Assembly: GCF_947500075.1 (NCBI RefSeq)
Contig: NZ_CANMQS010000005.1
Span: forward strand, 248,001 to 312,000
DNA from: an uncultured Sulfitobacter sp.
GTDB lineage: Bacteria > Pseudomonadota > Alphaproteobacteria > Rhodobacterales > Rhodobacteraceae
Direction of reading: 5' to 3'
Length of the DNA stretch: 64,000 bases
A program made the translations under genes and the position numbers. Numbering within the stretch: position 1 is the first letter of the stretch; the number at the start of each line of letters is the position of its first letter. Below are positions 5,754 through 23,867 of this stretch, piece by piece. The notes below the pieces were generated by a model, which saw only the letters and a list, made by a program, of their open reading frames with translations, searched no databases and had not been told where the DNA came from.

Positions 5754-5769
5754 CTATCCCTTTGCATAG
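5754..5769. promoter_or_regulatory. Palindromic operator 1, before the porin-algFIJX operon
   Basis: The bases CTATCC-CTTT-GCATAG form an inverted repeat with a 4-base spacer, ending 104 bp before the porin start. The following CCCCGCT matches the flank of operator 4. The same architecture occurs before four other transcription units of this locus (11506, 14720, 17894, 19558). Binding by the local response regulator is inferred. Confidence 0.7.
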
Positions 5770-5873
5770 CCCCGCTAGACCAATCGCGCATCCGGTAGCC
5801 CTTTGGCCGTCTGTGTTCGACACCCCCTCAATCGTATTCAGGCACCAGAACTTTCAGTGTGAGGACTGTGGTG

Positions 5874-7118
5874 ATGATAAAGAGTATTAGCAAAGCGTTC
5901 GCGTTAGTGAGCATCCTGGCGGTGGCAATCGCATTGGCCCCGCTCCCGGCGGATGCAGGCAGCAAGAAGGATAAGCCGCTGAGTGCGCCGTCCGTTTTCA
6001 ATGCCGAAAAACGCAAATCGACGAGAAACAAATGGGGCCAGCGGCTTTCCTATAGCGGCTATGCGCAGTTCAAAGCACAGGGGGAAACGAACCTGGGCCG
6101 GGATGACGCGATCCTGGACAGGCGGGACGAGATGGCGCTCTACCTTGGTTTGGTGGGGCGGGTTGATCTGGGGCGCCGTGCCATTGGCTTTGCGCATGGC
6201 CAGTTGAAATGGACGCGCAAACAGTCTCACACCACAGATTATGACCCGACGCTGCAATGGATCACGAAAGAAGCGTTTGTGTCTTTCCAACTGTCTGCAA
6301 AGCAGCGGTTAACCGTCGGGCGAATGCGATTTTCAGACCTGACCCGCTGGGTCGTGGATGCATCCGTCGACGGTGTTCATTTTGCCCATCGCAGCCCGGA
6401 TCAGGTTACCGAAGTTGCAGCCTTTGCCGCGACCGGCGACGACGAGGGTCGTTTTGTGATGGTCCATCATGGCCGGGTGCTGAACAAACTGCGGTACGGT
6501 GCAATTGCGCTGTTGGAAGACCTGCCGAATGACCGCCGCCTGAGGGTGTCGGGATATGCGCTTGGCCAAATGTCAAAGCAAACTTCCTTTGAAGCGAATG
6601 TCGCCGCCACGATGAGCGATGCGGCGGGCACCGGTTTGGCGTTCGATGTCCGGACCACACATAAATTCGGCGCCAGCCGCCTCAAGCCGCAAGTGTTGCT
6701 TGGGTTTGCCGCTGGCACCGCTGATTTTCGCCAATCCGGTGTGCATAGCAACAAGACCTACAATGGCGGGCAAACGCAGGTGCACCGCTATGGCTATGTG
6801 TTTCAACCGGACCTGACGAACCTTGCTGTCGGCACTGTTGCGGTGGGGCTGCGGCCCTCCAGAAACTTCTCTGTCGATCTTGGGCTGCATGTCTACGGCC
6901 AGGTCCAGAAATCACGGAGTGCGCCTGTGGCACGGTTCTCTGGCGCGATGACGGGGGACAGCCGTTTTGTGGGGACCGAAGTCAGCCTTGTCGGGGCATG
7001 GCGGCCCAACAAACGCTCTAAGGTCGATTTTAGGGTGGGGCGTTTCAAACCGGGCCGCGCGTTTGCCGACCGCTCTGACGTCACCCGGGTTTCCATCCGC
7101 CTGACTACAACTTTCTGA
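5874..7118 (+). CDS. AlgE-like outer-membrane polysaccharide porin
   Basis: The product is 414 residues with a signal peptide (hydrophobic stretch to ADA at about residue 28) and a long body of alternating amphipathic strands ending in TTTF, as in outer-membrane beta-barrels with a terminal Phe. Position and length fit the alginate export family, somewhat shorter than the roughly 490-residue AlgE of Pseudomonas. ATG 5874 is chosen because GAGG lies about 9 bp upstream and the signal peptide begins here; GTG 5859 is possible. It heads the operon with algF, algI, algJ-like and algX-like genes and should form the exit channel for the polymer. Confidence 0.75.
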   Translation: MIKSISKAFALVSILAVAIALAPLPADAGSKKDKPLSAPSVFNAEKRKSTRNKWGQRLSYSGYAQFKAQGETNLGRDDAILDRRDEMALYLGLVGRVDLGRRAIGFAHGQLKWTRKQSHTTDYDPTLQWITKEAFVSFQLSAKQRLTVGRMRFSDLTRWVVDASVDGVHFAHRSPDQVTEVAAFAATGDDEGRFVMVHHGRVLNKLRYGAIALLEDLPNDRRLRVSGYALGQMSKQTSFEANVAATMSDAAGTGLAFDVRTTHKFGASRLKPQVLLGFAAGTADFRQSGVHSNKTYNGGQTQVHRYGYVFQPDLTNLAVGTVAVGLRPSRNFSVDLGLHVYGQVQKSRSAPVARFSGAMTGDSRFVGTEVSLVGAWRPNKRSKVDFRVGRFKPGRAFADRSDVTRVSIRLTTTF

Positions 7119-7128
7119 GGATAATCAC

Positions 7129-7716
7129 ATGACACGTTTTAGCTTTCTTACGACCCTGTTTCTTATTGCTGCCCCACAATGTGTTCTGGCTGATACCAGC
7201 CTCTATGCTGAGGCAGCGCCGGCGGATGCCAGCTTTGTGCGCTTTATCGGGTTCGATGGTGCCAACGAGGCGGAGTTTGACGGCTTTACTTTTGCGCTAA
7301 ACGGCGATGTTGGGGAGGCATACATCCCCGTGTCCGCCGCCCTTTTGAAGGGCACAGAGCCGGGCCGCTATGTTTCTGTTTTCCGCCGCGCAGATGGTGA
7401 AATCCGGACGATCACCGAAGGGGCGCGCGCAAGTCGGTCCAAAGTGTCTCTGCTGATGGTGAACGCGGGCGATACGCCTGTGCATCTGCGGCTTGCCGAT
7501 GGCAGCGTTCCAGTGGTCGAAGACGTGGGCCCCAACAGCGCCGCCCAGCGCGATGTCAATCCTGTTGCCATCTCGCTTGGGGTCTTTTCCGACAGTGCAG
7601 AGGCGCCTCTGGCGGTTTTCGATGTGGCGCTGCACCGTGGTCAGAACCTCAGCTTCGTCGTGGACGCAGGCAGCGTCCGTCTTATTGAAAATCAATTCGC
7701 GCCAGTTGCGAAGTAA
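7129..7716 (+). CDS. algF: AlgF-like polysaccharide O-acetylation protein
   Basis: A 195-residue periplasmic protein with a cleavable signal peptide (to VLA at residue 21) and a beta-rich body, matching AlgF in size and in motifs such as SLYAEAAPADASFVRF and the SFVVDAGSVRLIEN end. AlgF works with AlgI, AlgJ and AlgX to place acetyl groups on polymannuronate in the periplasm. It begins 10 bp after the porin gene and is followed 24 bp later by algI. All four acetylation genes are present in this operon, so the polymer should be acetylated. Confidence 0.8.
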   Translation: MTRFSFLTTLFLIAAPQCVLADTSLYAEAAPADASFVRFIGFDGANEAEFDGFTFALNGDVGEAYIPVSAALLKGTEPGRYVSVFRRADGEIRTITEGARASRSKVSLLMVNAGDTPVHLRLADGSVPVVEDVGPNSAAQRDVNPVAISLGVFSDSAEAPLAVFDVALHRGQNLSFVVDAGSVRLIENQFAPVAK

Positions 7717-7740
7717 GTCCAGACCTCCGGGATCAAGCAG

Positions 7741-9138
7741 ATGATTTTTTCCAGTGTATTCTTCGTCTTCGGGTTTCTGCCTTTGTTTCTGACGCTCTAT
7801 TATCTGGCGCCGCATCGGGCGCGTTCCTTGATGATCCTGCTGGGCAGCTACGCGTTTTATGGCTGGTGGCGGCTGGATTATCTGGCGGTGGTCTTTGGCA
7901 TCTCGATGTTCAGCTTTCTCGCAGCGCATGTCGCGGCGAACGTTCAAAGCCAAACGGCGCGGATCTGGGCGGTACGGGTTGGGGTGACCGTCGATCTGCT
8001 GGTTTTGGGGTTTTTCAAATACACGATGTTTGTGCTCGGCGGGTTGAGCGATCTGTCGCAGGCTTTTGGCGGTGCTTCTATCGCTGTGCCTGCCATCATC
8101 CTGCCGATCGGGATTTCGTTCCACACATTCCAGTCTATCAGTTACATCATCGACGTGGCGCGAAAGGATGCGCCGCCTGCACGAAATCTGATAGATTTTC
8201 TGGCCTTCGGTGCGCTATTTCCACAGCTCATTGCGGGTCCGGTGTTGCGCTACAAGGATTTGGCGGAGCAATTCTCAGACCGCAGCCACACAGCCGCGAA
8301 ATTTGTCGAAGGCATTGGCCGGTTCGCACAAGGCCTGGCGATGAAAGTCCTGATTGCGGACAACGTCGCACCCGTGGTGGACCGCGTGTTCGCAATGACG
8401 ACCCCGACGGGCGGCGAGGCTTGGCTGGGGGCGCTGGCCTATACGATCCAGCTGTTTTTTGACTTTGCCGGATATTCCGCCATGGCCATTGGTCTGGGGC
8501 TGATGATTGGCTTTCGGTTTATCGAGAATTTCGACGCGCCCTACACCAGCCGATCCATCACGGAATTCTGGCGTCGCTGGCATATCAGCCTGTCATTGTG
8601 GCTGCGCGACTATCTCTATCTGCCGCTGGGGGGCAACCGGCGGGGGCCGCTGCGGACATATCTGAACCTGTCGCTGACGATGGTGCTGGGCGGGCTGTGG
8701 CACGGTGCAAACTGGACCTTCCTTTTGTGGGGGGCATGGCACGGGTTCTGGCTGGCCGTGGAGCGCGCACTGGGGTCAAAAACTAAGGGTACCGTTTGGC
8801 CGCATGTGATGGCTTGGCCCTTCACAATGGCACTGGTTGTTGTGGGATGGGTGATGTTCCGTGCCGCGACGGTGCGCGAAGCCTTTGCGCTCTATTCAGG
8901 CATGATTGGTCTGAATGGCTGGGTAATCGGCGAAGGTATGGCCTGGCAGTTTCAACCGACTGAGGGTGTTGCACTGTTGATCGGTGGTGTGATCGCCCTT
9001 GGCGGCAAACCGATGGCCGTCGCAATCCTACGGATCCCGCGCAGCTTCCGTCTTGCCGGAACTGCAAGCCTGATGGGTTTGGCCTGCACGGCGCTGATGG
9101 CGCAATCGCACTCCCCTTTTTTGTATTTCCAGTTTTAG
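7741..9138 (+). CDS. algI: AlgI-like membrane-bound O-acyltransferase (MBOAT)
   Basis: A 465-residue multi-pass protein of the MBOAT family. Its opening MIFSSVFFVFGFLPLFL, the ITEFWRRWHISLSLWLRDY block and the active-site LWHGANWTFLLWGAWHG with His321 are all typical of AlgI. It moves acetyl groups across the inner membrane to AlgF/AlgJ/AlgX-type partners. It is the third gene of the operon, close to algF and 10 bp before the algJ-like gene. Length and motifs are normal and the assignment is firm at family level. Confidence 0.92.
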   Translation: MIFSSVFFVFGFLPLFLTLYYLAPHRARSLMILLGSYAFYGWWRLDYLAVVFGISMFSFLAAHVAANVQSQTARIWAVRVGVTVDLLVLGFFKYTMFVLGGLSDLSQAFGGASIAVPAIILPIGISFHTFQSISYIIDVARKDAPPARNLIDFLAFGALFPQLIAGPVLRYKDLAEQFSDRSHTAAKFVEGIGRFAQGLAMKVLIADNVAPVVDRVFAMTTPTGGEAWLGALAYTIQLFFDFAGYSAMAIGLGLMIGFRFIENFDAPYTSRSITEFWRRWHISLSLWLRDYLYLPLGGNRRGPLRTYLNLSLTMVLGGLWHGANWTFLLWGAWHGFWLAVERALGSKTKGTVWPHVMAWPFTMALVVVGWVMFRAATVREAFALYSGMIGLNGWVIGEGMAWQFQPTEGVALLIGGVIALGGKPMAVAILRIPRSFRLAGTASLMGLACTALMAQSHSPFLYFQF

Positions 9139-9148
9139 GAGACGGACC

Positions 9149-10186
9149 ATGACACCCGACCAAAACCGCAGTGACCTGATGGTCAGCCTGGGATTTGTCA
9201 GCGCCCTGGCCCTCATTGGAGCGTCCGCGCATCTGTCCATGAAGCAGCCTGACCCGAAGGTGGGCTTCACGGATGGGGCGTATCAAACGCTCTACGAAGA
9301 ACGCTTTACCGACACCAATCCCGTGAACGACCTGGCGATCCATGCTTTCAGCGCGTTAAAACTGGCGGCCCTCGGACAGGTGTCGCAAGGGGCCGTTCGG
9401 GGCGTAGACAATTGGCTCTTCACCGCAGAAGAATTCGAGGTGCATGCCGGTTTCGAGGAAAACCTGATGGCGTCCGCGCAGGAGATTGCCCGCGTCAAAG
9501 ATGTTTTGTCCCAGCGCGGTATCTCCCTGTTGCCTGTCATTGTGCCGGACAAGGCAGAGGTGGCTGCGCAATACGTGCAGACGCCCCGGCATGCCCGCGT
9601 CGCGTCCCGGCACAAGACCTTCTTGGCACATCTGGCAGCGCTGGATGTCTCTTATCTGGATGCAACAGCGGCGCTGGAGCAGGTTGGCGTTGCCAGTTTT
9701 GTGAAAGACGACACGCATTGGTCGCCAGCAGGCAGTCAAGCGGTGGCAGAGGCCGTGGCCGAACGGACCGGCACCATGCCTCTCAATCTCACGAAGGCGC
9801 AGGTCACAACAGAGCCGATGGGCGAAACCTCCTTTGACGGCGACCTCTTGCGATATGTGCCAACCGGCATGTTCCGCCCACTTGTCGGCCCGCCGCAACA
9901 GCGCCTAGCAAGATTCGAAACCACGCTCCAGTCAGATACGGGTCTGTTCGGGGATGCGCAGGTCGATGTGGCACTGGTCGGTACCAGTTTCAGCGCCAAA
10001 GACGAATGGCATTTCGCCGGTTTTTTGCGCCAAGGCCTTCAAGCCGATCTTCTCAATTTCGCCAGCGAAGGGCAGGGGCCCTTTGCGCCGATGCAGTCTT
10101 TTCTGGCGTCCGCCACCCTGCGGGACAAACCCCCCAAACTCGTCATCTGGGAAATCCCGGCCCGCTATACATCAAAGGAATTGTAA
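9149..10186 (+). CDS. algJ: AlgJ-like acetyltransferase (SGNH/AlgX-like fold)
   Basis: The product has 345 residues with an N-terminal membrane anchor or uncleaved signal (about residues 12-27). Catalytic features of the AlgJ/AlgX group are visible: Asp188-x-His190 in DDTHWSPAG and Ser280 in LVGTSFS. It acts in the periplasm and transfers acetyl groups toward the mannuronate chain. It lies between algI and a second member of the same fold. I call this one AlgJ because it has no C-terminal carbohydrate-binding module; the names AlgJ and AlgX could be debated at this distance. Confidence 0.78.
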   Translation: MTPDQNRSDLMVSLGFVSALALIGASAHLSMKQPDPKVGFTDGAYQTLYEERFTDTNPVNDLAIHAFSALKLAALGQVSQGAVRGVDNWLFTAEEFEVHAGFEENLMASAQEIARVKDVLSQRGISLLPVIVPDKAEVAAQYVQTPRHARVASRHKTFLAHLAALDVSYLDATAALEQVGVASFVKDDTHWSPAGSQAVAEAVAERTGTMPLNLTKAQVTTEPMGETSFDGDLLRYVPTGMFRPLVGPPQQRLARFETTLQSDTGLFGDAQVDVALVGTSFSAKDEWHFAGFLRQGLQADLLNFASEGQGPFAPMQSFLASATLRDKPPKLVIWEIPARYTSKEL

Positions 10187-10188
10187 CC

Positions 10189-11493
10189 ATGACATCTATT
10201 CTCAAAACTCTGAGCGTTGCCCTATCTCTTGCAGTCGCCTTGCCGGTTGCGGCAGATCCGTATTGCGCTGCGCTGGGGGATGCAGATCAACTGCCCAAAA
10301 AGTACCAGAAAAAGGGACCATTCTATATTGATGCGACAAGTGGCTGGATTGTCGGGCGGGATCAATTGAAAAGCGATTTTGCCGTGACAGCAGAAACTAG
10401 CGCCCTGTGGCGGGACATCCGCGAGGCCTTTGCTGAAAGAGGGGCGCAGCTTGTTGTGCTGGCGGCACCACCACGTCCGCTTTTTGCACCTGAGCACATG
10501 GCTTTGCCTGCGACCTATGACCGATTGAAACAGCAGCAGGATTTCTCGGACTACATCGCGGCGTTGAATGCTGCGGGGATCGCGACACCCGATCTATCGG
10601 GTTTTCACAGCATGGTTGATGAATACTACTTTGCCCGCGACACCCATTGGACGCCCATGGGGGCCTTTCACTCCGTGGTGCACCTCAAACGGGCCATGGG
10701 AGAGCAAACAAACCGTGGGGCCGGTGATGATATCGAGGCGGAAGGCACCTACACCGAAAAAGGATCGCTCTCCGCTGTGGTGGAGGCGACATGTGGCGCG
10801 CGGCCTGTGGCAGAAACCGTCCCTGCGGCCACCTATGTACAGCAAGGCGGTGCCGCGGCCCTGCTTGGGGATGACATGTCGCAGGACAAAATCGCCCTTG
10901 TCGGCACAAGCTTTTCGGACCGCTATCAACGCGATGCCTATCAAGTGGCTGACGCGCTGTCCTTTGTTATGGATCGGCCAGTCGACAATTATGCAGTCAC
11001 CGGCGGCGGATTGACCGGGGCGTTGGAAGCCTTCCTGAACACCGAAAGCCTTGCGACGGCAGAGTACAAAACCGTCGTCTGGGAGGTTCCCTACACGTCC
11101 CCTCTGACACAGGTTGACGGTCTGCGACAGGTGCTGGGCAATTTGCACCGCCCGGTCGGGGCAGCGATGGAAACCAGGACACTCACGTTGGATGACACGT
11201 GGACAACTGTGGACCATGAGTTTTCCTTGTCAGAGGTTTCGGTCATAGAAGTCGAGACTCCAGGTGTCGATACGGGTAAATTGGTGATCGAGTTGATTGA
11301 CCGTGACGGCACCAAGATCCGAAACAGGCTGACAAAGTCGGATCGTATCGACAGCGCGTCAAGATCACCGAATTGGACCATGGCAACCGACCATATGCCG
11401 ATCAAGGACATCGCGCGGATCAAAGTGCGCCTGACGGGTGTGAAGTCACAAAGCACTGCAACCATTAAGTTTTTCTACGATCAAACAAGCTGA
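10189..11493 (+). CDS. algX: AlgX-like O-acetyltransferase with carbohydrate-binding end
   Basis: A 434-residue periplasmic protein with a signal peptide (to AVALPVAA at residue 22). The SGNH-like domain carries Asp151-x-His153 (RDTHWTP) and Ser241 (LVGTSFS), the active-site pattern of AlgX. After about residue 330 a beta-sandwich tail, rich in strands and ending TIKFFYDQ, matches the place of the AlgX carbohydrate-binding module. The ATG at 10189 is two bases after the algJ stop and begins the signal peptide, so longer upstream readings are rejected. It is the last gene of the operon. Confidence 0.8.
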   Translation: MTSILKTLSVALSLAVALPVAADPYCAALGDADQLPKKYQKKGPFYIDATSGWIVGRDQLKSDFAVTAETSALWRDIREAFAERGAQLVVLAAPPRPLFAPEHMALPATYDRLKQQQDFSDYIAALNAAGIATPDLSGFHSMVDEYYFARDTHWTPMGAFHSVVHLKRAMGEQTNRGAGDDIEAEGTYTEKGSLSAVVEATCGARPVAETVPAATYVQQGGAAALLGDDMSQDKIALVGTSFSDRYQRDAYQVADALSFVMDRPVDNYAVTGGGLTGALEAFLNTESLATAEYKTVVWEVPYTSPLTQVDGLRQVLGNLHRPVGAAMETRTLTLDDTWTTVDHEFSLSEVSVIEVETPGVDTGKLVIELIDRDGTKIRNRLTKSDRIDSASRSPNWTMATDHMPIKDIARIKVRLTGVKSQSTATIKFFYDQTS

Positions 11494-11505
11494 CCGAGGG
11501 GCGGG

Positions 11506-11521
11506 CTATACTTTGGTATAG
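11506..11521. promoter_or_regulatory. Palindromic operator 2, before the sensor pair
   Basis: CTATAC-TTTG-GTATAG is a perfect inverted repeat, followed 4 bases later by a further half-site CTATAC at 11526-11531. It ends 79 bp before the start at 11601. A -10-like TTATGTAAT follows at 11541-11549, about 30 bp from the palindrome centre, a spacing that would suit an activator overlapping the -35 region. It is one of five such sites in the locus. Confidence 0.7.
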
Positions 11522-11600
11522 TTCGCTATACCCTTACCCGTTATGTAATTGCGCCACGGCTTGCTAGGAGAAGCCAAACCCTCAAGCCTTGGAGCACATC

Positions 11601-12110
11601 ATGAACGTTCTTACCCCGCTAAGCGCCCTGATCCTCGTCGGACTTTCCTACGGAAGTGCTGTTGCTGAGACGTTGACGGCACCCAAAGGTGAGGTACTGC
11701 TCAGCATCTCAGGGGCGATCACGCAGGACAATGGTAATGGCGTTGTCAGCCTCGATCTGGATCAGTTGCAGGCGATGGAGACCATGGAGTTCACAACCTC
11801 TACGATCTGGATGGAAGACGAGGTGACCTTCACCGGCGTCAGCCTGAGCGCGCTGCTCGATCTTGCGGGGGCCGAGGGCACGGCGATAAACGCTATTGCC
11901 TTGAACGATTATAAAGTTGAGATTCCAGTGGATGAGATCACGGAAGAGGCGCCCATCGTTGCCTACCTGATGAATGGTGAAGAAATGTCACCACGGGGCA
12001 AAGGCCCGCTTTGGGTTGTTTATCCATATGACGCGGATCCCGCCTACCGGTCAGAGGTTGTCTTTTCGCGATCCATCTGGCAGCTGGACCGGATCGAAGT
12101 AACCGACTGA
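11601..12110 (+). CDS. Periplasmic molybdopterin-fold (SUOX-like) small protein
   Basis: The product has 169 residues with a signal peptide (to SAVA near residue 21). The core resembles the oxidoreductase molybdopterin-binding fold, with motifs such as VTFTGVSLSALLDLAG and GPLWVVYPYDADPAYRSE. No cysteine that could bind molybdenum is seen, so it is more likely a ligand- or redox-sensing or structural domain than an enzyme. It ends 11 bp before a hybrid sensor kinase and shares its promoter, which suggests it feeds the kinase a periplasmic signal. ATG 11601 has GGAG at good spacing. Confidence 0.65.
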   Translation: MNVLTPLSALILVGLSYGSAVAETLTAPKGEVLLSISGAITQDNGNGVVSLDLDQLQAMETMEFTTSTIWMEDEVTFTGVSLSALLDLAGAEGTAINAIALNDYKVEIPVDEITEEAPIVAYLMNGEEMSPRGKGPLWVVYPYDADPAYRSEVVFSRSIWQLDRIEVTD

Positions 12111-12120
12111 GGCGCGTGCG

Positions 12121-14718
12121 GTGCGGCCTCTCGACGTAAGGATTGCGCCACGGGTGTTGGACCGTAGAACAAAGCTTCGCCAGTTTCTACCGCCTGCGGT
12201 GATGATCTTGGGCATTTGCCTGCTGGCGGGGCTGGCCTTTGTCATCACACAGCGCATGACCGAGCTGCGCGAAGCGCCCGGTGATAATCTGACCTGGACA
12301 TTGTCGCAGGTTGAAGTGGACGTGCTGGTCCTGATGGATGAGACCTTGCTTGCCCAACAGCGCAACACGGTCGATCCCGCTGACATCCGGCGGCGGTTTA
12401 ACAACCTCTACAGCCGGACCAGCACGTTGCGCGAAGCGCCGGTGTTTGCGCAGATGCGGCAGGATCCAACCTTCCTGTCACAGCTTGAAACGCTTGAGAG
12501 GTGCCTCGAAAAGCTCGCCGTGATCATCGACAGCCCGGATGATGTCCTTGTCCAGCGGCTGCCCGAGGTGGTGGAGGAGCTGTTGCGCATCCGCGAAGAT
12601 GCCCATGCCATCGCGCTGACCGGGATCGGGTTACGGTCGCAGTACTCGGATGCCGAACGCGCCTCGCTCGCGGGCTTGTTGCTGACGGCGGCTTTTACCA
12701 GTCTGGCGCTGATCCTTTTTCTGGTGTTCGTCCTGCTGGTGATCCGGCGTCAGTATCATGAACACAAGGAAACAACTGAAGAGGTGAACCGAGCAAATGC
12801 TCGGATCAAATCCATCTTCGATGTCTCTCTCGACGCCATTGTGGTTGCCAATGATGACGGCGTTATTCTTGAGTTCAATTCTGCCGCCGAACAGGTGTTC
12901 GGGTTCACTTCCGAAGAAGCTATCGGGCAGGAGATGTCCGAGCTGATCATCCCCCATCATCTGCGGGATGCGCACAAGGCGGGGATGGAACGGTTCAACC
13001 GCACCAAAGAGCCGCATCTTGTAGGCAAGGGCAGGATTGAGGTGACAGCCCTGCGCAAATCGGGTGAGGAATTCCCCGTCGAGATCTCCATCGGCATGTC
13101 CACTGATCACCGCGGCACAATCTTTGTGTCCTACCTGCGCGACATCACCAAACGTCTGGCTGCGGAGGATTCCCTAAAAACCGCGCGTGACGAAGCCTTG
13201 GCGGCAGAACGGGCCAAATCGAATTTCCTGGCTGTCATGAGCCATGAGATGCGCACCCCGTTGAACGGAATCTTTGGCACGTTAGAGCTGTTGGGGAACT
13301 CTGACGTGGATGACAAACAGCGCGGTTATCTCGACATTGCCAAGCGGTCGGGCGACATCCTGTTGCACCACGTAAACGACGTGTTGGATCTGTCCCGGAT
13401 CGACGCGGGCAAGATGGATCTGGTCGAAGACAGCATTGATCTGGAGGCTTTCTTTCGCGATGCCGTTGCCACCAACGAGGCGACAGCGGACGCCCAAAGC
13501 AACGTGCTTGAACTGCAACTGGGGGTCATGCCCGAGTCAAGGGTGATGATGGATGAACAACGTCTGCGCCAGATCGTCTACAACCTGATCAGCAATGCGC
13601 TGAAGTTCACCAAGGATGGAAAGGTAACAGTCCGCGCCGCCACCGATCAGACCGACACGGGGGAGAGGTGGTTGCGTTTTGATGTGGAAGACACCGGCGT
13701 CGGGATTCATCCAGACGAACAACAGCATGTTTTTGATCGCTTCTACACACAAGAACGCTCGTATGATCGCTTCGCCTCCGGCGCTGGGCTGGGCTTGTCC
13801 ATTAGCAAACAGTTGGTGGAAATGATGGGGGGGCAAATCACCCTCAAGAGTATCCCGTCCAAGGGCAGCGTCTTTTCGGTTTCCGTTCCCTTCGAACCCG
13901 ATCTTGCGCCCCATGACAGCCACAGCGTGACAGCGCCAAACCTCGATGCGTCCCCCTTGCGCGATGTTGAGATTTTGCTGGTGGAGGACAATGAGATCAA
14001 CCGGCTGATCGTGCATGAAATGCTGCGCTCCAACGGGCTGGTGGTACATGAGGCCCACAATGGCCAGCAAGCGGTCGAACTGGCGTCGCAGCAAAGGTAT
14101 GCGGCGATCTTGATGGATGTCAGCATGCCGGTGATGAACGGTGTGGATGCAACGCACGCCATACGCGGGTCCCAAGGTCCGAACCAGCATACCAGGATCA
14201 TTGGTCTGACGGCGCATGCCTTGGCGGAGGAGCAGGCGCGTTTCCTTGATGCGGGGATGGACCGGTGCCTGAACAAGCCCGTGTCTCAGGAAATGCTGGT
14301 CGATGCCCTTCTAGATGTGGTTCAGGGGGCCGCTGCACCGCAAGCGCCTGATGCAGATGGGGTGCCGGTGGATCTGCTTGCAGAAGAAACGATCTTGGGT
14401 CTGGAAGACCTGCTACCGGCAGAGCGGCTGCACCGTGTGGTGGCCGACTACATGCGCGAAGTGGATGCTTTGATCGCGCATCTCCCGGCCTTGCTGGAAC
14501 AGGACGATCTGGGCGAGGTTGCCGCATGTGTGCACAAATGCATTGGGTCTTCCGGCATGATCGGAGCGGAGATGTTTCAAAAGGACCTGCGCAATCTGGA
14601 AACGGCTGCAAAATCAGGACAGAAGCCGCAGTTGCCCGGGCTGGTGGCCGCCGTAGAAACCGCATGGCCACAGACGCAGGCCGCCTTGCGCGCAAGGGTG
14701 CTGACCCCCAGAAGCTGA
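12121..14718 (+). CDS. Hybrid sensor histidine kinase (PAS-HisKA-HATPase-REC-HPt)
   Basis: The product has 865 residues. Two membrane helices (about 24-43 and 183-205) bracket a periplasmic sensor region of about 140 residues. A PAS domain follows (about 225-345), then HisKA with His375 (SHEMRTPLNG), HATPase with N (SNALKFTKDG), G1 (DTGVGI) and G2 (GAGLGLS) boxes, a receiver with Asp666 (ILMDVSMPVMNG), and an HPt domain with His805 (VHKCIGSSG). It can therefore run a full His-Asp-His relay. The separate LuxR-type regulator at 23847 is the obvious final acceptor. The start is a GTG next to the preceding gene; an internal start is possible. Confidence 0.88.
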   Translation: MRPLDVRIAPRVLDRRTKLRQFLPPAVMILGICLLAGLAFVITQRMTELREAPGDNLTWTLSQVEVDVLVLMDETLLAQQRNTVDPADIRRRFNNLYSRTSTLREAPVFAQMRQDPTFLSQLETLERCLEKLAVIIDSPDDVLVQRLPEVVEELLRIREDAHAIALTGIGLRSQYSDAERASLAGLLLTAAFTSLALILFLVFVLLVIRRQYHEHKETTEEVNRANARIKSIFDVSLDAIVVANDDGVILEFNSAAEQVFGFTSEEAIGQEMSELIIPHHLRDAHKAGMERFNRTKEPHLVGKGRIEVTALRKSGEEFPVEISIGMSTDHRGTIFVSYLRDITKRLAAEDSLKTARDEALAAERAKSNFLAVMSHEMRTPLNGIFGTLELLGNSDVDDKQRGYLDIAKRSGDILLHHVNDVLDLSRIDAGKMDLVEDSIDLEAFFRDAVATNEATADAQSNVLELQLGVMPESRVMMDEQRLRQIVYNLISNALKFTKDGKVTVRAATDQTDTGERWLRFDVEDTGVGIHPDEQQHVFDRFYTQERSYDRFASGAGLGLSISKQLVEMMGGQITLKSIPSKGSVFSVSVPFEPDLAPHDSHSVTAPNLDASPLRDVEILLVEDNEINRLIVHEMLRSNGLVVHEAHNGQQAVELASQQRYAAILMDVSMPVMNGVDATHAIRGSQGPNQHTRIIGLTAHALAEEQARFLDAGMDRCLNKPVSQEMLVDALLDVVQGAAAPQAPDADGVPVDLLAEETILGLEDLLPAERLHRVVADYMREVDALIAHLPALLEQDDLGEVAACVHKCIGSSGMIGAEMFQKDLRNLETAAKSGQKPQLPGLVAAVETAWPQTQAALRARVLTPRS

Positions 14719-14719
14719 C

Positions 14720-14735
14720 CTATGCTTCCGCATAG
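14720..14735. promoter_or_regulatory. Palindromic operator 3, before alg44-alg8
   Basis: CTATGC-TTCC-GCATAG is a perfect inverted repeat directly after the kinase gene, with another half-site CTATGC at 14742-14747. It ends 119 bp before the Alg44-like start. It has the same shape as operators 1, 2, 4 and 5. Confidence 0.7.
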
Positions 14736-14854
14736 GGTGCTCTATGCACAATAGCGCTGTTCTGCGCTGTCGCGCACCCGACAGAAAACACCATCCCAGA
14801 TAGAAAACCCAGGTGAGAGTCGCCGATTTTCGGTAAAAAAATCTGGAGTATGTA

Positions 14855-16279
14855 ATGAACATTCGTCACGAATGTCCGTTGCCCGATCTGTCTTTTTCAG
14901 TGACGGCACCGCTGTCCGTTACCAAAGCCAATGGGCGCAAGTTTGTTGCGCAGCGTTGGTCTTTGGCAGGGCTGTGGTGCGATGAAGACGCGGGCGACAT
15001 GACAGGCGACGTTTTTCTGTCTGTGCCATTCCAAGGCGTTGATGTCTCTTTTCAGGTCACCCTCACATCCACCGATATGCCCGGATTTTTTGCTTTCCAA
15101 GACCTGACTGTGCGCCAGCGGGAGACATTGGGCCTTTTCCATCAAAGCCTGCTGGCCGGTCGCATGGTCTCTGCAGGGGAGATGATCACGGCACTGGACA
15201 CGCCTGTGGATCTTGTTCCCATGGGAGAGACCGAAGAAGAGCAAATCGTAGGCGAGGCCAAGGCCAAACCACGCGGCGCACGCATCTTGTGGAACGCAGT
15301 CAGCTATGTGTTGATCGCCCTGTTTCTGGTGACCTTTCTTGGCACGCAAATCTGGCAGCGGCTATCCTATATCGCACTCGATCATGGCAGGTTCATCGCC
15401 CCCGTTGTGGCCTATGAGGCACCGCAGGCAGGGTATGTGGGCAAAGTCGCCGTCGCGGTTGGGGATCAGGTCAAAGCAGGCGATATCCTTGTGCGACTGG
15501 AAGACCCGGACCGGCAAAGCGACGTCGAAGAAGTCCGGGCCGAGATTTTGCTGGCCGAACAACAGTTGCGCATGGCACAGGACCGTTTGGCCCGCCACAT
15601 CGCCCGCCGGGCCGCCGAAAAGGCGGCTTTGCAGCGCGCCTTTGATGTCCTGTGGGGGCCGTGGCAGCACAATGATCCGCATCTGCAGACCTATCCGGCT
15701 GAGATCGAAGCGGCACGCCTGACGCTCTACAACTTTGACCGAGGACGCGATGCGGAGGCGCTGATGCATCTCGACATGGTGCAGACCCTGCAGGATGCCG
15801 CGCACCAGCGCGAATTGGAACTGCGCCGCTGGAAACGCGAGCTGCGCCACCGCAAGGCCGCCGCGGATGAGCTGGTGGTGCGGGCAAAGTCCAACGGCAC
15901 CGTGCATCATCTGCATACGGTCAAAGGCAGCTACGTTGCCCGCGGCGCTTTGGTTGTTGAAGTCGAAGACAATGCGCCGCGACTTGCCATGGGGTGGGTC
16001 GATGATGATTTGGCCGCATCGGTCTTTGTTGGCATGCAGGCTGAGGTTGCCTTTATGCATCGCGGCCAATCTAAACGCATGCTGGGCGTCGTGAGTGATC
16101 TTCAGGCGGGCACACATACCGCCCAGCCGGACCGGTTTGGCTTGGTTGTCACGATCAAGGCCCAGGACACGGGCGTTAAAAACAGCCGCAAGTGGTTCCG
16201 TCGCAATGCCCCGGCGCAGCTGCGCCTGAAACGCGACATGTTCGCGGGATGGTTTGGGGGCGCAGATGAAAGCCCCTGA
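14855..16279 (+). CDS. alg44: Alg44-like PilZ and membrane-fusion polymerase subunit
   Basis: The product has 474 residues. The N-terminal 120 have the place and strand pattern of a PilZ domain, then one membrane helix (about 144-167), then a HlyD-like periplasmic adaptor with a barrel (GKVAVAVGDQVKAGDILV) and a long coiled-coil hairpin (about 220-345). This is the layout of Alg44, the c-di-GMP receptor that activates Alg8. The PilZ ligand motifs look altered: Arg34 stands where [D/N]xSxxG has Asp or Asn (QRWSLAG), and no clear RxxxR precedes it. The end overlaps the alg8 start by 14 bp, as expected for two subunits of one synthase. Confidence 0.8.
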   Translation: MNIRHECPLPDLSFSVTAPLSVTKANGRKFVAQRWSLAGLWCDEDAGDMTGDVFLSVPFQGVDVSFQVTLTSTDMPGFFAFQDLTVRQRETLGLFHQSLLAGRMVSAGEMITALDTPVDLVPMGETEEEQIVGEAKAKPRGARILWNAVSYVLIALFLVTFLGTQIWQRLSYIALDHGRFIAPVVAYEAPQAGYVGKVAVAVGDQVKAGDILVRLEDPDRQSDVEEVRAEILLAEQQLRMAQDRLARHIARRAAEKAALQRAFDVLWGPWQHNDPHLQTYPAEIEAARLTLYNFDRGRDAEALMHLDMVQTLQDAAHQRELELRRWKRELRHRKAAADELVVRAKSNGTVHHLHTVKGSYVARGALVVEVEDNAPRLAMGWVDDDLAASVFVGMQAEVAFMHRGQSKRMLGVVSDLQAGTHTAQPDRFGLVVTIKAQDTGVKNSRKWFRRNAPAQLRLKRDMFAGWFGGADESP

Positions 16280-17852
16280 TACGGTCTACGGCTTTGAAAA
16301 ACATCTGGACGGTTGGCTGTCTGATCTTGCTGGCCCCGCGCCAAAGGGGCTACAGAAATGGCGACCACACTTCATTGCACAAGCTGTAATCCTGTTTGCC
16401 CTTCTGGCTGCGGCCATGGTGTTCCTGCCCAACACCTTCTTTCATCCCGACTTGATGTTCATCACGTTCTCGCTGGGCGCATTGGGCTTCTGGCGCTTTG
16501 GCTGGTGGTTCACCCATGCAGTCCGAGCCGAGATTTTCGCCCGCGCTGTCTTTCCCAAGATGCGCCGCGAGGCCGATGCGGTCTGGCGAGCGGGCTGGCG
16601 TCCGGGGCGTTTGCACATCCAGATGACCACCTATTATGAAGAACCTGCCATCACCCGGCGGGTGATCGGCTCCATCCTTGGGCAGATCCGGCGCGAAGGC
16701 ATTCCGACCACGCTGTGGATTGGGACAGGGTCGTCTTATGACGAGGAGATCATTACCGAATTCGTGCGCACCCATGGCGCGGATGTGGACGCGGATCTGG
16801 TGTTTTTGCGCCAGAACCAACCCGGCAAACGCATGGCCATTGGGATGATCCTGCGTGCGATGAACCGCGCAGGCGTGCGGCCGGATGATCTGGTGATCTT
16901 TATGGATGGCGATGCGGTTTACGGCATCGACGTGCTGGAAAAAACCTGTTCGATGTTTGGCGCAGATCCAGATCTGCATGCGCTAACCACCAATGAAGAG
17001 GTCATCTGCTATGGCCCTGATTGGATCCAAAGCTGGCTGTCCATGCGGTTCGCCCAGCGGCGGTTGGCGATGCAAAGCCACGCTTTGTCCAAGCGGGTGC
17101 TGACGCTAACCGGGCGCATGTCCGTCTTCCGAGCGCGTTTTATCACCGATGAGAAGTTCATCCGCACCATTGAAGCCGACCATCTGGATCACTGGCTCTG
17201 GGGGCGGTTCCGATTTCTGTCCGGCGATGACAAAAGCACCTGGTATTACCTTTTGTCCAAACGCGCCAAGATGACCTACGTGCCAGATGCCTGCGTCTAT
17301 ACGATTGAGCAGATCGAAGGCTCTGGCACGGGCCGGATGGTACAGAACTTCCGCCGCTGGTCTGGTAACATGCTGCGCAACGGATCGCGCGCCATCGCGC
17401 TTGGCCCTCGGGTCGCTGTTCCTTTCATTTGGTGGTGTTTGGTCGATCAGCGCATTGCGATGTGGACCATGCTGGTCAGCCCGACACTGGCCGTGCTGTC
17501 GGTCTTTGTAGCTCCGATCTATCTGCTGAATTGCCTGATCTGGATCGTGCTCAGCCGATTGATCCTGTGCCTGTTTCTGTTCCGCTATGCCCGAAAGCCG
17601 GACATGACATGGCCGTTCATTCTGTATTTCAACCAGATCATCAACGCGAGCGTGAAGGTCTATATGATCTTTCACCTGAGCAAGCAGAAATGGTCCAACC
17701 GGGGCAATCAAAGCGCGGGGGGCGGCACTGCGTTGATTGACCGGGTAAAAAACGCGGTGGCCCTGTCGCAGATGATCACTACGGTTGTGGCCTTTGTCAC
17801 CGGCTTGGCTGTCTACATCGGTGTGCTGCATCTGCCTGCACCTCTTTTCTGA
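16266..17852 (+). CDS. alg8: Alg8-like polymannuronate synthase (GT2)
   Basis: A 528-residue processive family 2 glycosyltransferase with N-terminal and C-terminal membrane helices. Visible signatures are the DGD metal-binding motif at Asp214-Asp216 (FMDGDAVYG), an EADHLDHW acceptor motif and QNFRRW in place of QxxRW. The whole sequence pattern (TTYYEEP, GTGSSYDEE) fits Alg8 better than cellulose or hyaluronan synthases. It should polymerise GDP-mannuronate and pass the chain out through the inner membrane. ATG 16266 lies inside the 3' end of alg44; the upstream start at 16254 is less likely. Confidence 0.88.
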   Translation: MKAPDTVYGFEKHLDGWLSDLAGPAPKGLQKWRPHFIAQAVILFALLAAAMVFLPNTFFHPDLMFITFSLGALGFWRFGWWFTHAVRAEIFARAVFPKMRREADAVWRAGWRPGRLHIQMTTYYEEPAITRRVIGSILGQIRREGIPTTLWIGTGSSYDEEIITEFVRTHGADVDADLVFLRQNQPGKRMAIGMILRAMNRAGVRPDDLVIFMDGDAVYGIDVLEKTCSMFGADPDLHALTTNEEVICYGPDWIQSWLSMRFAQRRLAMQSHALSKRVLTLTGRMSVFRARFITDEKFIRTIEADHLDHWLWGRFRFLSGDDKSTWYYLLSKRAKMTYVPDACVYTIEQIEGSGTGRMVQNFRRWSGNMLRNGSRAIALGPRVAVPFIWWCLVDQRIAMWTMLVSPTLAVLSVFVAPIYLLNCLIWIVLSRLILCLFLFRYARKPDMTWPFILYFNQIINASVKVYMIFHLSKQKWSNRGNQSAGGGTALIDRVKNAVALSQMITTVVAFVTGLAVYIGVLHLPAPLF

Positions 17853-17893
17853 TATTCACTCGAAAACAGCATCTTATGAGGTTTTCGCCCATC

Positions 17894-17909
17894 CTATCCT
17901 TCCGGATAG
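17894..17909. promoter_or_regulatory. Palindromic operator 4, before algA
   Basis: CTATCC-TTCC-GGATAG is a perfect inverted repeat, followed by CCCCGCT exactly as at operator 1. It ends 130 bp before the algA ATG in a 187-bp gap between alg8 and algA. It is one of the five locus palindromes. Confidence 0.72.
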
Positions 17910-18039
17910 CCCCGCTCTGCGGATGCGCGATCTTCTGTCCTTGCGAGGCCGCGCAATTGAATCGGGCAGGGCGTACCACACTCCCATCAAGCGGGATTGG
18001 CCCGCGCTCTCTAAGTGTGTGAGTAAGAGGAGACGAACA

Positions 18040-19467
18040 ATGATTTACCCAGTTATCCTATGCGGTGGGAGCGGCAGCCGGTTGTGGCCACTGTCGCGCA
18101 AAAGCTACCCAAAGCAGTTTGTGGCTTTGGACGCTGACCGCAGCCTGTTTCAACAAACCGTTGCGCGTGTTCAGCACGCAAACTTTGGCAAGCCGGTGAT
18201 CGTCACCAATGCGGATTACCGCTTTATCGTGGCCGAACAATTGGGCGCTGAGGGCGTCGAGGGCGCGCGCATCATGATCGAACCCGAAGGTCGGAACACC
18301 GCGCCTGCCGTTCTGGTCGCGGCCCTGAGCCTGCAGCAGGAGCCGGACGCGATGATGCTGGTCATGCCATCAGATCATGCGATTGACGACACCGAAGCTT
18401 TCCTTGCCGCCGTTGCCACCGGCCAGCAGGCTGCGCAGGCGGGTGATCTGGTGACCTTTGGCATCACACCGACCCGCGCCGAAACGGGATATGGCTATCT
18501 CGAAACCGAAGTTAAGGTGGTGGCGCAGACAGATGGCGTGGTGCCGCTCAAAGCCTTCGTTGAAAAGCCAAACGCCGATCTGGCCTCTGTCTTTGCCCAG
18601 TCAGGTCACCATCTATGGAACGCAGGCATCTTCATGTTCCGCGTCAAGGACATCATCGCCGCATTTGAGGCCCATTGCCCAGGTCTGATGATGCCCTGTC
18701 GCCGTGCAGTTGATGGCGCACGCCACGATCTCGATTTCATCCGTCTCGATGAAACACCGTATCAGACGGCCCAGGACATCTCGATTGATTTTGCGGTGAT
18801 GGAAAACAGCAGAAACCTCAGCGTCGTGCCGCTGGCCTGCGGCTGGTCTGACATGGGCAGCTGGTCTTCGGTCTGGGAGCGGGGCGAGGCGGACGCGCAT
18901 GGCGTTGTTCAGACTGGAAACACCACGGCGATCGGGTGTGAAAACACGTTGCTGCGGTCTGACAGTGATGGTGTTGAACTGGTGGGTATTGGGCTGAACG
19001 GGATCAGCGCGATTGCGATGGGGGATGCGGTGCTCGTGGCGGATATGTCCTGCAGTGAGACGGTCAAAACTGCGGTGAAAACCCTCAAGGCGCGAGAGGT
19101 CAAACAGGCCGAGCAGTTCCCCAAAGATCACCGCCCGTGGGGGCATTTCGAAACGCTCTCTCTGGGCAAACGGTTTCAGGTAAAACAGATCGTGGTCCAC
19201 CCCGGCGCGGCCCTGTCCCTGCAAAGCCACGTGCACCGCTCAGAGCATTGGGTCGTGGTGGCGGGTTCGGCCAGTGTGACTGTGGGCGAAGACGTGAAAC
19301 TCTTGGGGGAGAACCAGTCTGTCTACATTCCCCTTGGTGAAATCCACCGTTTGGAAAATCCGGGCAAAGTGCCACTGCATCTCATTGAAGTGCAGACCGG
19401 CGCGTACCTCGGGGAAGACGATATCGTGCGCTACGAAGACATCTACGCGCGCGATGAAGCTGCATAA
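18040..19467 (+). CDS. algA: AlgA: mannose-1-P guanylyltransferase / mannose-6-P isomerase
   Basis: A 475-residue bifunctional enzyme. The N-terminal nucleotidyltransferase has the GGSGSRLWPLSRKSYPKQ signature and a FVEKPN motif, and the C-terminal type II phosphomannose isomerase cupin contains QSHVHRSEHWVVV and IPLGEIHRLENPG. It supplies mannose-1-phosphate and GDP-mannose for the polymer. The start at 18040 is chosen because AAGAGGAG lies just upstream and homologues begin with MIYPVILCGGSG; the longer upstream reading frame has no support. A terminator follows, so algA is probably its own unit under operator 4. Confidence 0.93.
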   Translation: MIYPVILCGGSGSRLWPLSRKSYPKQFVALDADRSLFQQTVARVQHANFGKPVIVTNADYRFIVAEQLGAEGVEGARIMIEPEGRNTAPAVLVAALSLQQEPDAMMLVMPSDHAIDDTEAFLAAVATGQQAAQAGDLVTFGITPTRAETGYGYLETEVKVVAQTDGVVPLKAFVEKPNADLASVFAQSGHHLWNAGIFMFRVKDIIAAFEAHCPGLMMPCRRAVDGARHDLDFIRLDETPYQTAQDISIDFAVMENSRNLSVVPLACGWSDMGSWSSVWERGEADAHGVVQTGNTTAIGCENTLLRSDSDGVELVGIGLNGISAIAMGDAVLVADMSCSETVKTAVKTLKAREVKQAEQFPKDHRPWGHFETLSLGKRFQVKQIVVHPGAALSLQSHVHRSEHWVVVAGSASVTVGEDVKLLGENQSVYIPLGEIHRLENPGKVPLHLIEVQTGAYLGEDDIVRYEDIYARDEAA

Positions 19468-19500
19468 ACCAAAAACAATAAGCACTCTCACACCACCTCA

Positions 19501-19531
19501 AACGGCGTCCCCCCCGGCGCCGTTTTTTTTT
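19501..19531 (+). terminator. Rho-independent terminator after algA
   Basis: The stem AACGGCG (19501-19507) pairs with CGCCGTT (19518-19524) across a C-rich loop and runs into a tract of nine T. It lies 33 bp after the algA stop and separates algA from algD. Confidence 0.88.
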
Positions 19532-19557
19532 GTCTCCGATCAATTCTTTTTGGGCCG

Positions 19558-19573
19558 CTATCCCAAAGCATAG
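19558..19573. promoter_or_regulatory. Palindromic operator 5, before algD
   Basis: CTATCC-CAAA-GCATAG has one mismatch between its arms, and a CATACCC element follows 6 bases later. It starts 26 bp after the algA terminator and ends 99 bp before algD, so it sits in the algD promoter region. An AT-rich stretch (19609-19629) that could hold the -10 region lies between the site and the gene. Confidence 0.65.
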
Positions 19574-19672: not shown

Positions 19673-21073
19673 ATGTTTGATATCCACCCCCAATACGCCG
19701 CCCTTGCCACCGCAGTACCTTTGCGGGTGATCCAAGAGAAACCCTCCATCTCTGTTGTCGGGCTGGGCTATGTCGGCGCGGTGTCCACGGCTTGTTTGTC
19801 CAGCCTGGGACATCGCGTCATCGGGGTAGATATTGATCCCGCGAAGGTCGCCTGTATCGGGGAGGGGCGCTCGCCCATCCATGAACAGGATCTCGAAGAG
19901 ATGCTGCAAGCGGGCGTCGCCGATGGCTTTGTCACGGCGTCAACGGATCTTGAGCAAGCGGTCGTGGACACCGATGTGACCTTCGTCTCCGTTGGCACCC
20001 CCACCAGCGCGGATGGCGGCTGTGATCATTCCTATATTGATGCAGCGGCACGCGCGATTGGGGCAGGGCTCCGGCGCAAGAACGCCTACCATGTGGTGGT
20101 GATGCGGTGCTCCATCCCGCCCGGGGTGACCATGGGGTTCATGGCCCCGATCATTGAAGAAGTCAGCGGCCTGAAACTGGGCGAGGACTTTGGTGTCTGT
20201 TTCAATCCTGAATTCCTGCGCGAAGGCGTGGCGATTGAAGACTTCTATGCGCCGCCCAAGACGGTTATTGGCGCCAATGATCAACGCAGTGCTGCCATCC
20301 TGACGCGCATCTTCGAAGCCGTTGATCCCACGCCCATCGTCACCTCCATTGAGACGGCTGAGATGGTCAAATACGTCGACAACATTTGGCACGCGACAAA
20401 AGTGTGTTTTGCCAATGAAGTGGGGCGTTTGTGCAAGCCATTGGGGGTCGACAGCCATGATGTGATGGATGTCTTTGTGCAAGACACCAAGCTCAACCTG
20501 TCACCCTATTACCTCAAACCCGGCTTTGCCTTTGGCGGCTCCTGCCTGCCCAAGGAAGTCCGTGCGGTGGCGCATATCGCCAAGGAACAAGGCGTCAGCC
20601 TGCCGCTGATCGAAAGCCTCACCACCTCCAATGAGACCCATGTCGAAGAGGCGATCCGCATGGTGCGGGCAACCGGAGCAAAGACCGTTGGCGTCTTTGG
20701 TCTGGCCTTCAAACCCGGCACGGATGATTTGCGCGAAAGCCCGATTCTGGAGGTGATTGCCGTCCTCAACGCAGAGGGCGTGAAGGTTGTGGTCCATGAT
20801 CCGGCCATCACCGCCCAGACCCCGCTGGAGGGGCAGCTGGCCTATGTGCGCCACGGCAGCAGCGGGCTGCAGGCTTTGGCCGCTGATCTGCCCGGCATGT
20901 TGCGGTCGACCCCTGCGGAAGTGGCCAAAGATGCGGAGGCGTTGATCGTGACGCACGCCAACCCGCTCTACCTACAGGCCATTGCCGATGCTGGCCCGGT
21001 GCCAGTGATCGATTTGGTGCGCATCCAAGATGATGCGGCGGCCGCCCCCAACATCAATGGCATCGGCTGGTAG
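19673..21073 (+). CDS. algD: AlgD: GDP-mannose 6-dehydrogenase
   Basis: The product has 466 residues. It starts with a short extension, then an NAD-binding Rossmann motif (VVGLGYVGAVSTACLSSLG), then the catalytic loop GGSCLPKEVRA with the nucleophile Cys291, and a C-terminal UDP/GDP-sugar dehydrogenase domain. The match to AlgD is better than to UDP-glucose dehydrogenases because of motifs such as KTVIGANDQRS and the FGGSCLPKEVRA context. It oxidises GDP-mannose to GDP-mannuronate, the committed step. The RTX gene follows 50 bp later and may share its transcript. Confidence 0.9.
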   Translation: MFDIHPQYAALATAVPLRVIQEKPSISVVGLGYVGAVSTACLSSLGHRVIGVDIDPAKVACIGEGRSPIHEQDLEEMLQAGVADGFVTASTDLEQAVVDTDVTFVSVGTPTSADGGCDHSYIDAAARAIGAGLRRKNAYHVVVMRCSIPPGVTMGFMAPIIEEVSGLKLGEDFGVCFNPEFLREGVAIEDFYAPPKTVIGANDQRSAAILTRIFEAVDPTPIVTSIETAEMVKYVDNIWHATKVCFANEVGRLCKPLGVDSHDVMDVFVQDTKLNLSPYYLKPGFAFGGSCLPKEVRAVAHIAKEQGVSLPLIESLTTSNETHVEEAIRMVRATGAKTVGVFGLAFKPGTDDLRESPILEVIAVLNAEGVKVVVHDPAITAQTPLEGQLAYVRHGSSGLQALAADLPGMLRSTPAEVAKDAEALIVTHANPLYLQAIADAGPVPVIDLVRIQDDAAAAPNINGIGW

Positions 21074-23840: not shown

Positions 23841-23867
23841 GGCCGGTCAGAACAGACCGGCCTCTTT
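23841..23867. terminator. Bidirectional terminator between RTX gene and response regulator
   Basis: GGCCGGTC (23841-23848) and GACCGGCC (23855-23862) form a perfect 8-bp stem with a 6-base loop, followed by TCTTT. It lies between two convergent genes and covers the stop codon of the minus-strand gene. Confidence 0.7.

Follow-up and report, generated by a model that had tools for sequence, protein, structure and literature searches.

The window analyzed here, a 64,000-nucleotide stretch of contig NZ_CANMQS010000005.1 from an uncultured Sulfitobacter sp. (RefSeq assembly GCF_947500075.1), contains an alginate-like polysaccharide locus in which a 16-bp inverted repeat, CTATNC-N4-GNATAG, stands upstream of five transcription units. 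We propose that this palindrome is very probably the operator of a NarL-type response regulator (RR) encoded at one end of the locus (23847–24461, minus strand; Response_reg and GerE domains), that a PruR-DTB system encoded nearby does the sensing, and that RR and operator form a portable module that switches polysaccharide and sensor operons.

All other genes of the locus lie on the plus strand. The first operator (CTATCCCTTTGCATAG, 5754–5769) is upstream of genes for an alginate-export-type outer membrane porin (5859–7118; PF13372), an algF-like O-acetylation protein (7129–7716; PF11182), an algI-like MBOAT acyltransferase (7741–9138; PF03062), and algJ-like and algX-like SGNH proteins (9149–10186 and 10006–11493; both PF16822), the last with an uncertain start codon and a longest frame that overlaps algJ. 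The second (CTATACTTTGGTATAG, 11506–11521), with a third half-site, CTATAC, 4 bp downstream, precedes a gene for a PruR-like periplasmic protein predicted to bind pterin (11601–12110; PF00174) and one for a DTB-type hybrid kinase (12121–14718). The third (CTATGCTTCCGCATAG, 14720–14735), which also has an additional half-site, 6 bp on, precedes an alg44-like membrane fusion protein gene (14855–16279; HlyD_3, named from synteny) and one for an alg8-like family 2 glycosyltransferase (16254–17852; PF13641). The fourth (CTATCCTTCCGGATAG, 17894–17909) is upstream of an algA-like gene for mannose-1-phosphate guanylyltransferase/mannose-6-phosphate isomerase (18040–19467; PF00483, PF01050), and the fifth (CTATCCCAAAGCATAG, 19558–19573) is upstream of a gene for an algD-like protein, assigned by family match to the UDP-glucose/GDP-mannose dehydrogenases (19673–21073), and of an RTX-repeat protein gene (21124–23829; PF00353, DUF6923) that starts 50 bp past algD. 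No algG, algK, or algL was among the families found for the window proteins scanned.

Candidate operators in the window and the genome

A pattern search of the whole window gave these five exact matches and no sixth. At 11506, 14720, and 17894 the two 6-bp arms are fully complementary, and at 5754 and 19558 they have one mismatched position each; the flank CCCCGCT is common to the sites at 5754 and 17894. From operator to first codon the distance is 89 or 104 bp for the porin (GTG 5859 or ATG 5874), 79 bp for the pruR-like gene (ATG 11601), 119 bp for alg44 (ATG 14855), 130 bp for algA (ATG 18040), and 99 bp for algD (ATG 19673). A preliminary description of this DNA had noted five sites at these positions and no other, three of them perfect palindromes and two with a single arm mismatch, a flank shared by two sites, extra downstream half-sites at two, and a spacing of 79–130 bp to the first genes, all of which held when measured.

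The genome of this organism (4,859,881 bases in 28 contigs) contains five exact matches, all of them the window sites. A reversed control pattern also matches five times, so the bare count is ordinary. All five exact sites lie inside 13.8 kb, for which the chance with five randomly placed sites is ~3 × 10−10; the frequency of the motif at random genome positions, a check proposed in the preliminary description, thus came out as clustering at the locus. With up to one mismatch allowed, there are 46 places (the five exact ones included) versus 62 for the reversed control, and thus no enrichment at this level. Of the 41 places with a single mismatch, six were inspected; all six lie within putative frames, called by a simple longest-frame rule, and none is a clear promoter site. 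Because there is no one-mismatch excess and the inspected extras all lie inside called frames, the regulon looks confined to the polysaccharide locus in this genome, and we rejected its extension beyond the locus on the same grounds.

The response regulator and its association with the palindrome

The RR combines a receiver (PF00072) with a GerE helix-turn-helix domain (PF00196), and its nearest solved structure is NarL (1a04). The receiver residues Asp/Asp/Asp/Ser/Lys are invariant in 42 aligned rows, the recognition helix is nearly invariant, and the genome encodes no close paralogue, the next best protein having 35% identity. In a family sample of 295 genomes the RR is present in 113 at E ≤ 1 × 10−60. 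We examined co-occurrence in the first 20 RR-positive genomes listed (own genome excluded) and the 20 listed RR-negative genomes, without use of alg genes. A stricter operator pattern was found in 14 of the 20 RR-positive versus 2 of the 20 RR-negative genomes (Fisher P = 1.2 × 10−4, relatedness ignored), amounting to 20 and 2 sites, respectively, with 2 and 4 for reversed controls. Fourteen of the 20 sites in RR-positive genomes are at most 10 kb from the RR gene, and the remaining six are in genomes G062, G074, G175 (two), and G182 (two; G and L numbers are our handles for genomes and loci). Around the closest RR matches, 29 RR-centered stretches of 3.6 kb hold 7 exact and 12 one-mismatch sites versus 0 and 3 for the control. 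The preliminary description had named this LuxR-type regulator as the likely reader; co-occurrence and proximity point to the same protein, and on these sequence grounds the 16-bp palindrome is a well-supported candidate operator of the NarL/LuxR-type RR.

We also considered whether an altered arm, GGTTAG, found in Shimia and Thalassovita, covaries with a change of the recognition helix from HVKTLCRK to HVRTLCKK. This candidate was set aside: L064 pairs the changed helix with standard arms, and the pattern is confounded by ancestry.

Conservation at related loci

A scan of GTDB species genomes yielded 130 confirmed Alg8 loci, and the best 80 of these contain 47 exact operators versus 0 reversed-pattern matches (1.45 Mb). 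The sites occupy orthologous places, mostly 90–120 bp upstream of alg44, 90–110 bp upstream of algD, and 35–130 bp upstream of the sensor gene, and operators occur upstream of algA and the porin as well; G002, for example, has an exact site 89 bp upstream of the orthologous porin. In Roseobacter sp. MH60115, where the acetylation operon lies on a separate contig with algF first, an exact site stands 73 bp upstream of algF. The 40 loci that contain the RR have sites of no more than one mismatch upstream of PruR in 24/27, of alg44 in 23/40, and of algD in 16/40, and upstream of genes internal to the operons in next to none (alg8 0/40, algI 0/10, algJ 0/11, the histidine kinase 0/35, and rtx 1/38). 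Since the internal genes are nearly site-free and PruR, alg44, and algD are rich in sites, the sites mark operon heads. This per-gene count omits L037 and L019–L032, so that S. mediterraneus is absent, and its algA values are too low, the query having been taken from an over-extended start at 17785; allowing for this, there are 13 algA promoters.

The other 40 loci, with no RR in the examined DNA, have sites of the same quality upstream of alg44 in 6/34, algD in 1/25, PruR in 0/2, and the porin in 1/2. The six alg44 sites are in L034, L039, L041, L049, L055, and L074; for the first five of these, the RR is encoded in another part of the genome. Five Alg8 genomes without an RR match at E ≤ 1 × 10−30 (L082, L088, L101, L104, and L108) have no exact operator in the Alg8 locus, and two of these five contain a single exact match outside that locus. 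Against 200 permuted motifs run over 141 sequence windows, a null that may include patterns resembling the true motif, exact sites were observed in 35 of the 141 (null mean 0.28, maximum 15), a number that rises to 66 when up to one mismatch is allowed (null mean 1.9, maximum 48). Relatedness between rows remains in the statistics of the permutation, tree, and co-occurrence tests. The sites are real, and their conservation upstream of orthologous genes in relatives, a check that the preliminary description had proposed, supports its reading of an exopolysaccharide regulon.

Some exact operators stand elsewhere. In Tritonibacter multivorans (L139:9758) and Roseobacter sp. SK209-2-6 (L141:9484) one lies away from any known target, beside the same neighbors in both (prolyl aminopeptidase-, UbiG-, and MarR-like genes, named by eye), possibly at a small-RNA promoter. 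On a small contig of G036 (L116:2638) an exact operator is 100 bp upstream of a gene for another histidine kinase, which has HisKA, HATPase, and HAMP domains and a weak match to Cache; a gene for a receiver-like protein comes next, and this kinase is a possible extra member of the regulon. At L115:7004 one is upstream of a nidogen/VWD/RTX protein gene, with a frame that by eye resembles a transposase in between. L045, on a contig binned as Reyranellaceae, has an Alg8/PruR/RR locus with Rhodobacterales-like operators, either by mis-binning or by transfer.

Distribution and surroundings of the polysaccharide locus

The distribution of the Alg8 locus among relatives is patchy. An Alg8 match was found in 12 of 145 genomes (own genome, G000, counted), and besides the own genome only G002 and G036 have one above 80% identity. 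Two tyrosine recombinase genes (1359–2591 and 4301–5335) are directly upstream of the polysaccharide locus, hinting at a possible island boundary. Farther along the window, a glutamate symporter frame (29878–30573) covers ~60% of its family profile (positions 6–229 of 368) and is possibly truncated or frameshifted.

The PruR-DTB sensor pair

The small protein of the sensor pair (169 amino acids (aa) from ATG 11601) belongs to the Oxidored_molyb (SUOX) family, has an N-terminus that reads as hydrophobic, and matches the pterin binding protein of PDB entry 7kos at E = 8.3 × 10−36. That entry is PruR of Agrobacterium tumefaciens, in which, as described, Trp replaces the Cys that would ligate Mo, and a Tyr and a Trp contact the pterin (PMC13259868). 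When these residues were placed in our alignment by means of 7kos, the replacing Trp, the pterin-contact Tyr, and the C-terminal Trp were conserved in 32 of 32 rows. The genome encodes a single PruR.

The hybrid kinase (865 aa) has PAS, HisKA, HATPase, receiver, and Hpt domains and two hydrophobic segments, near residues 19–47 and 180–213, with ~130–150 aa between them that would form the periplasmic domain. The DTB partner is described with a periplasmic region of ~190 aa and a WX7E motif (PMC13259868), at the place of which the window kinase has WTLSQVEVD, that is, WX7D. Of 39 kinase rows, a set that includes kinases not linked to PruR, 21 have WX7E in the corresponding position. Judged by the protein sequences, the pair is a PruR-DTB system, consisting of a periplasmic protein with predicted pterin binding and a hybrid kinase. 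Such systems are reported to be widespread in Proteobacteria, with Ruegeria pomeroyi WP_011045932.1 as one example; the description of DTB systems there gives neither a regulator nor an operator nor target genes, and "response regulator" is a term absent from the main text (PMC13259868). In our set, 28 of 33 PruR rows (15 with exact sites) have an operator with at most one mismatch within 260 bp upstream of the gene.

Exchange of the sensor

Many loci without PruR-DTB have, in its place beside the RR and the operator, genes for a FIST protein and a PAS-rich hybrid kinase, sometimes with a globin gene near the pair. All five FIST proteins tested contain FIST (PF08495) and FIST_C (PF10442) domains. 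Of 15 FIST loci, 13 contain the LOV signature GxNCRFL/M (NCRFM in one of them), as do L196 and L198, and it is absent from L121 and L124; the search was a six-frame text search of each locus and was not confined to the kinase. By this signature the FIST partner looks like a LOV photoreceptor kinase, which would bind flavin and respond to blue light. An identity of the FIST proteins with the nitric-oxide sensor NosP was rejected, the two tested scoring 42.2 and 36.3 bits against an NCBIfam cut-off of 450. In an RR tree of 58 rows, from which two duplicate RR rows had been dropped, the FIST label changes at least 3 times and the PruR label at least 6 times on well-supported branches, counts that are partly due to 11 rows with neither label, some of them from cut contigs.

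For FIST genes, upstream DNA is available in 8 of the 15 rows, and all 8 have an operator of no more than one mismatch in the 260 bp preceding the gene (6 of them exact). With 28/33 for PruR and 8/8 for FIST, the operator of the sensor operon is the best conserved of all, in keeping with the feedback on the sensor pair that the preliminary description had suggested.

A second, Wzy-type polysaccharide cluster

The RR module also occurs in a second, Wzy-type polysaccharide cluster, where operators again precede operons. In Sulfitobacter faviae and Ruegeria sp. B32, plasmids carry the RR and PruR-DTB genes within a cluster that encodes the polysaccharide export protein Wza, a UTP-glucose uridylyltransferase, a WecB/TagA/CpsF glycosyltransferase, a hypothetical protein, and an O-antigen-ligase-domain protein, the last two named hypE and oagL here. 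The arrangement is similar in G235, G288, and G375, in G065 with a FIST sensor, and in part in L125. Six of the 7 loci, all but L125, have an operator upstream of hypE(-oagL), which is exact in five and has one mismatch in the sixth, although L193, L194, L195, and L198 were chosen because the hypE site had already been seen, and the selection-free value is 2 of 3 (L183, L184, and L125). A site precedes the sensor gene, be it PruR or FIST, in 6 of 6 Wzy-type loci (4 exact, 1 with one mismatch, 1 with two), and wza has one in 3 of 5 testable loci (L193, L194, and L195; none in L184 and L125), neither of which was selected for.

A Pacificitalea plasmid has genes for PruR, kinase, and RR next to a CsgG-like gene; an exact site separates the PruR gene from that of the RR. 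L192, with the RR and no recognized sensor, has only an off-place site, and L185 no convincing promoter site. A tally over ten loci gives 15 exact and 9 one-mismatch sites versus 0 and 5 for the control, a biased rate, as it omits L185, L187, and L192 and most of the loci were chosen for a known site. The identity of the sensor pair as a PruR-DTB system, the exchangeability of the sensor, and the presence of the module in a second type of polysaccharide locus all go beyond the preliminary description.

Promoter anatomy

Promoter anatomy was compared over 111 distinct sites with at most one mismatch. A third half-site starts from +21 in 28 of these 111, 22 of them among the 40 sensor promoters (all-class background mean 1.28, maximum 7). 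A CTATNC box from +42 is found in 26 of the 111, mainly at algD (15/21; background mean 0.28, maximum 3) and algA (8/13), and none is evident at sensor promoters. The top four offsets for TTG do not include the one that would match a −35 (+19/+20), and TTG is mildly raised at +30 (12/111). Read as a −10 box, the +42 box would put the operator center near −50, with no recognizable −35, a layout expected of an activator-dependent promoter; from this we infer activation rather than repression, and the transcription start point. At sensor promoters repression is possible.

Alternative explanations

Several observations weigh against the palindrome being the operator of this RR. L132 has no site (up to two mismatches) upstream of PruR, and only 2-mismatch sites are found there in L052, L059, L060, and L119, as also upstream of the G036 porin, which lacks a site with at most one mismatch. 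Six of the 20 RR-positive genomes have no strict-pattern site, and the RR-bearing loci L122, L125, L126, L128, and L132 have none in the module-locus scan, which took only sites with up to two mismatches and a matrix score >13. Eight Alg8 loci (L038, L069, L083, L084, L085, L087, L095, and L098) lack an exact site in genomes that carry an RR relative of 46–60% identity; the presence of an RR therefore need not entail operators at the alg locus. Genome-wide the loose pattern is not above its reversed control (24 versus 23 exact matches in 7 genomes, 20 versus 26 in 17 genomes), so the evidence is positional, and 19 of the 24 exact sites in the 7-genome count fall in the alg locus; one of the remaining five is the algF site of Roseobacter sp. 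MH60115. Finally, the half-site CTATNC resembles an alphaproteobacterial −10 box, and the downstream signal is partly ambiguous.

The several RR-bearing loci without clear sites, the eight Alg8 loci without exact sites despite an RR relative in the genome, and the single strict site in each of 2 of the 20 RR-negative genomes could be explained if another, unlinked regulator used the palindrome at the same loci and the RR gene were merely linked or co-regulated. We consider this improbable, because across the family genomes tend to have the site and the RR together and at short distance from each other, also when picked for the RR alone, because exact sites are missing from the Alg8 locus in the five genomes without an RR match, and because the recognition helix is nearly invariant, like the operator. 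That the repeat is no operator but an element acting at the level of DNA (a mobile palindrome, a terminator, or a recombination site, for example) might be suggested by the two tyrosine recombinase genes that adjoin the locus; yet the half-sites stay the same from copy to copy and across species, in contrast to the N positions and flanks, the copies precede the first genes of operons and almost never the genes within, and exact copies are not spread through the genome, and we give this explanation almost no credence. Rather unlikely, in our judgment, is a third alternative that keeps the RR as reader and reverses its sign, with the RR shutting the polysaccharide genes off, as pterin-bound PruR limits attachment in Agrobacterium. 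PruR signaling in A. tumefaciens lowers the output of adhesin polysaccharide (PMC13259868), and the third half-site at sensor promoters could itself be a −10 box, which would place the operator over the −35 region, whereas the −10-like box at +42 of algD and the lack of a TTG peak at the −35 offset would suit an activator-dependent layout.

Proposed mechanism

With the palindrome as operator of the RR, the PruR-like protein would report the periplasmic pterin state to the periplasmic domain of the DTB-type hybrid kinase, which would pass phosphate through its own receiver and Hpt domains to the RR. A phosphorylated RR dimer would then bind the palindrome ~50 bp upstream of the start point, often aided by the third half-site a few bp downstream, and switch the operons for the acetylated alginate-like polysaccharide together with its own sensor operon, giving feedback. 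The sensor would be either PruR-DTB or the FIST protein with its LOV-signature hybrid kinase, and after an exchange blue light or a FIST ligand would set the kinase; the controlled genes would be either the alginate-like or the Wzy-type cluster. Direct RR binding, phosphotransfer, and pterin or light as the signal are steps that we infer. We lean, with some reserve, toward a self-contained portable cassette in which RR and operator stay constant and the sensor (pterin or blue light) and the polymer genes are swapped.

Relation to known systems and implications

Two-component control with a palindromic operator is of a known kind, and the window RR shares with NarL/FixJ regulators a receiver and a GerE/LuxR helix-turn-helix; no named member of that family is known to us to use a 16-bp CTATNC-N4-GNATAG palindrome. 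Alginate operons of Pseudomonas are regulated by AlgB, AlgR, and AmrZ. The algD, alg8, alg44, algFIJX, and algA gene families are common to both systems, but here they form several separate operons that have an operator each and are tied to a PruR-DTB/NarL-type circuit. LovK of Caulobacter is a LOV histidine kinase with the GxNCRFL signature and a link to surface life, both of which recur here, where the kinase is instead encoded with a FIST protein and with the RR and operator of PruR-DTB sister loci. In the PruR-DcpA system of A. tumefaciens, as described, the gene for a small periplasmic pterin-binding protein is likewise just upstream of that of its membrane partner and the output is adhesive polysaccharide and biofilm (PMC13259868); DcpA, however, is a cyclic di-GMP (c-di-GMP) enzyme, in place of which the window has a hybrid kinase whose output would be transcriptional, through RR and operator. 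PruR-DTB systems such as that of R. pomeroyi have, in the same description, a PruR-type protein and a DTB-type kinase in a two-gene operon, as here; the window kinase differs in its additional Hpt domain and in WX7D for WX7E, and regulator, operator, and targets are proposed here. Among the matches listed in searches of open-license papers, none dealt with this operator, with PruR-DTB targets, or with FIST-LOV pairs, and as far as these searches show, the arrangement of interchangeable sensors and targets and the link from PruR-DTB to polymer transcription are new.

If correct, our reading would give PruR-DTB signaling its first transcriptional output, acting directly on polymer genes and bypassing c-di-GMP, and the locus offers a specific RR, operator, and set of target operons for these systems. 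It suggests that the trigger of polymer production in the marine Roseobacter group has been re-wired by exchange of the sensor before a fixed RR-operator pair, which would bear on biofilm formation, on particle attachment, and on how marine bacteria decide to coat themselves.

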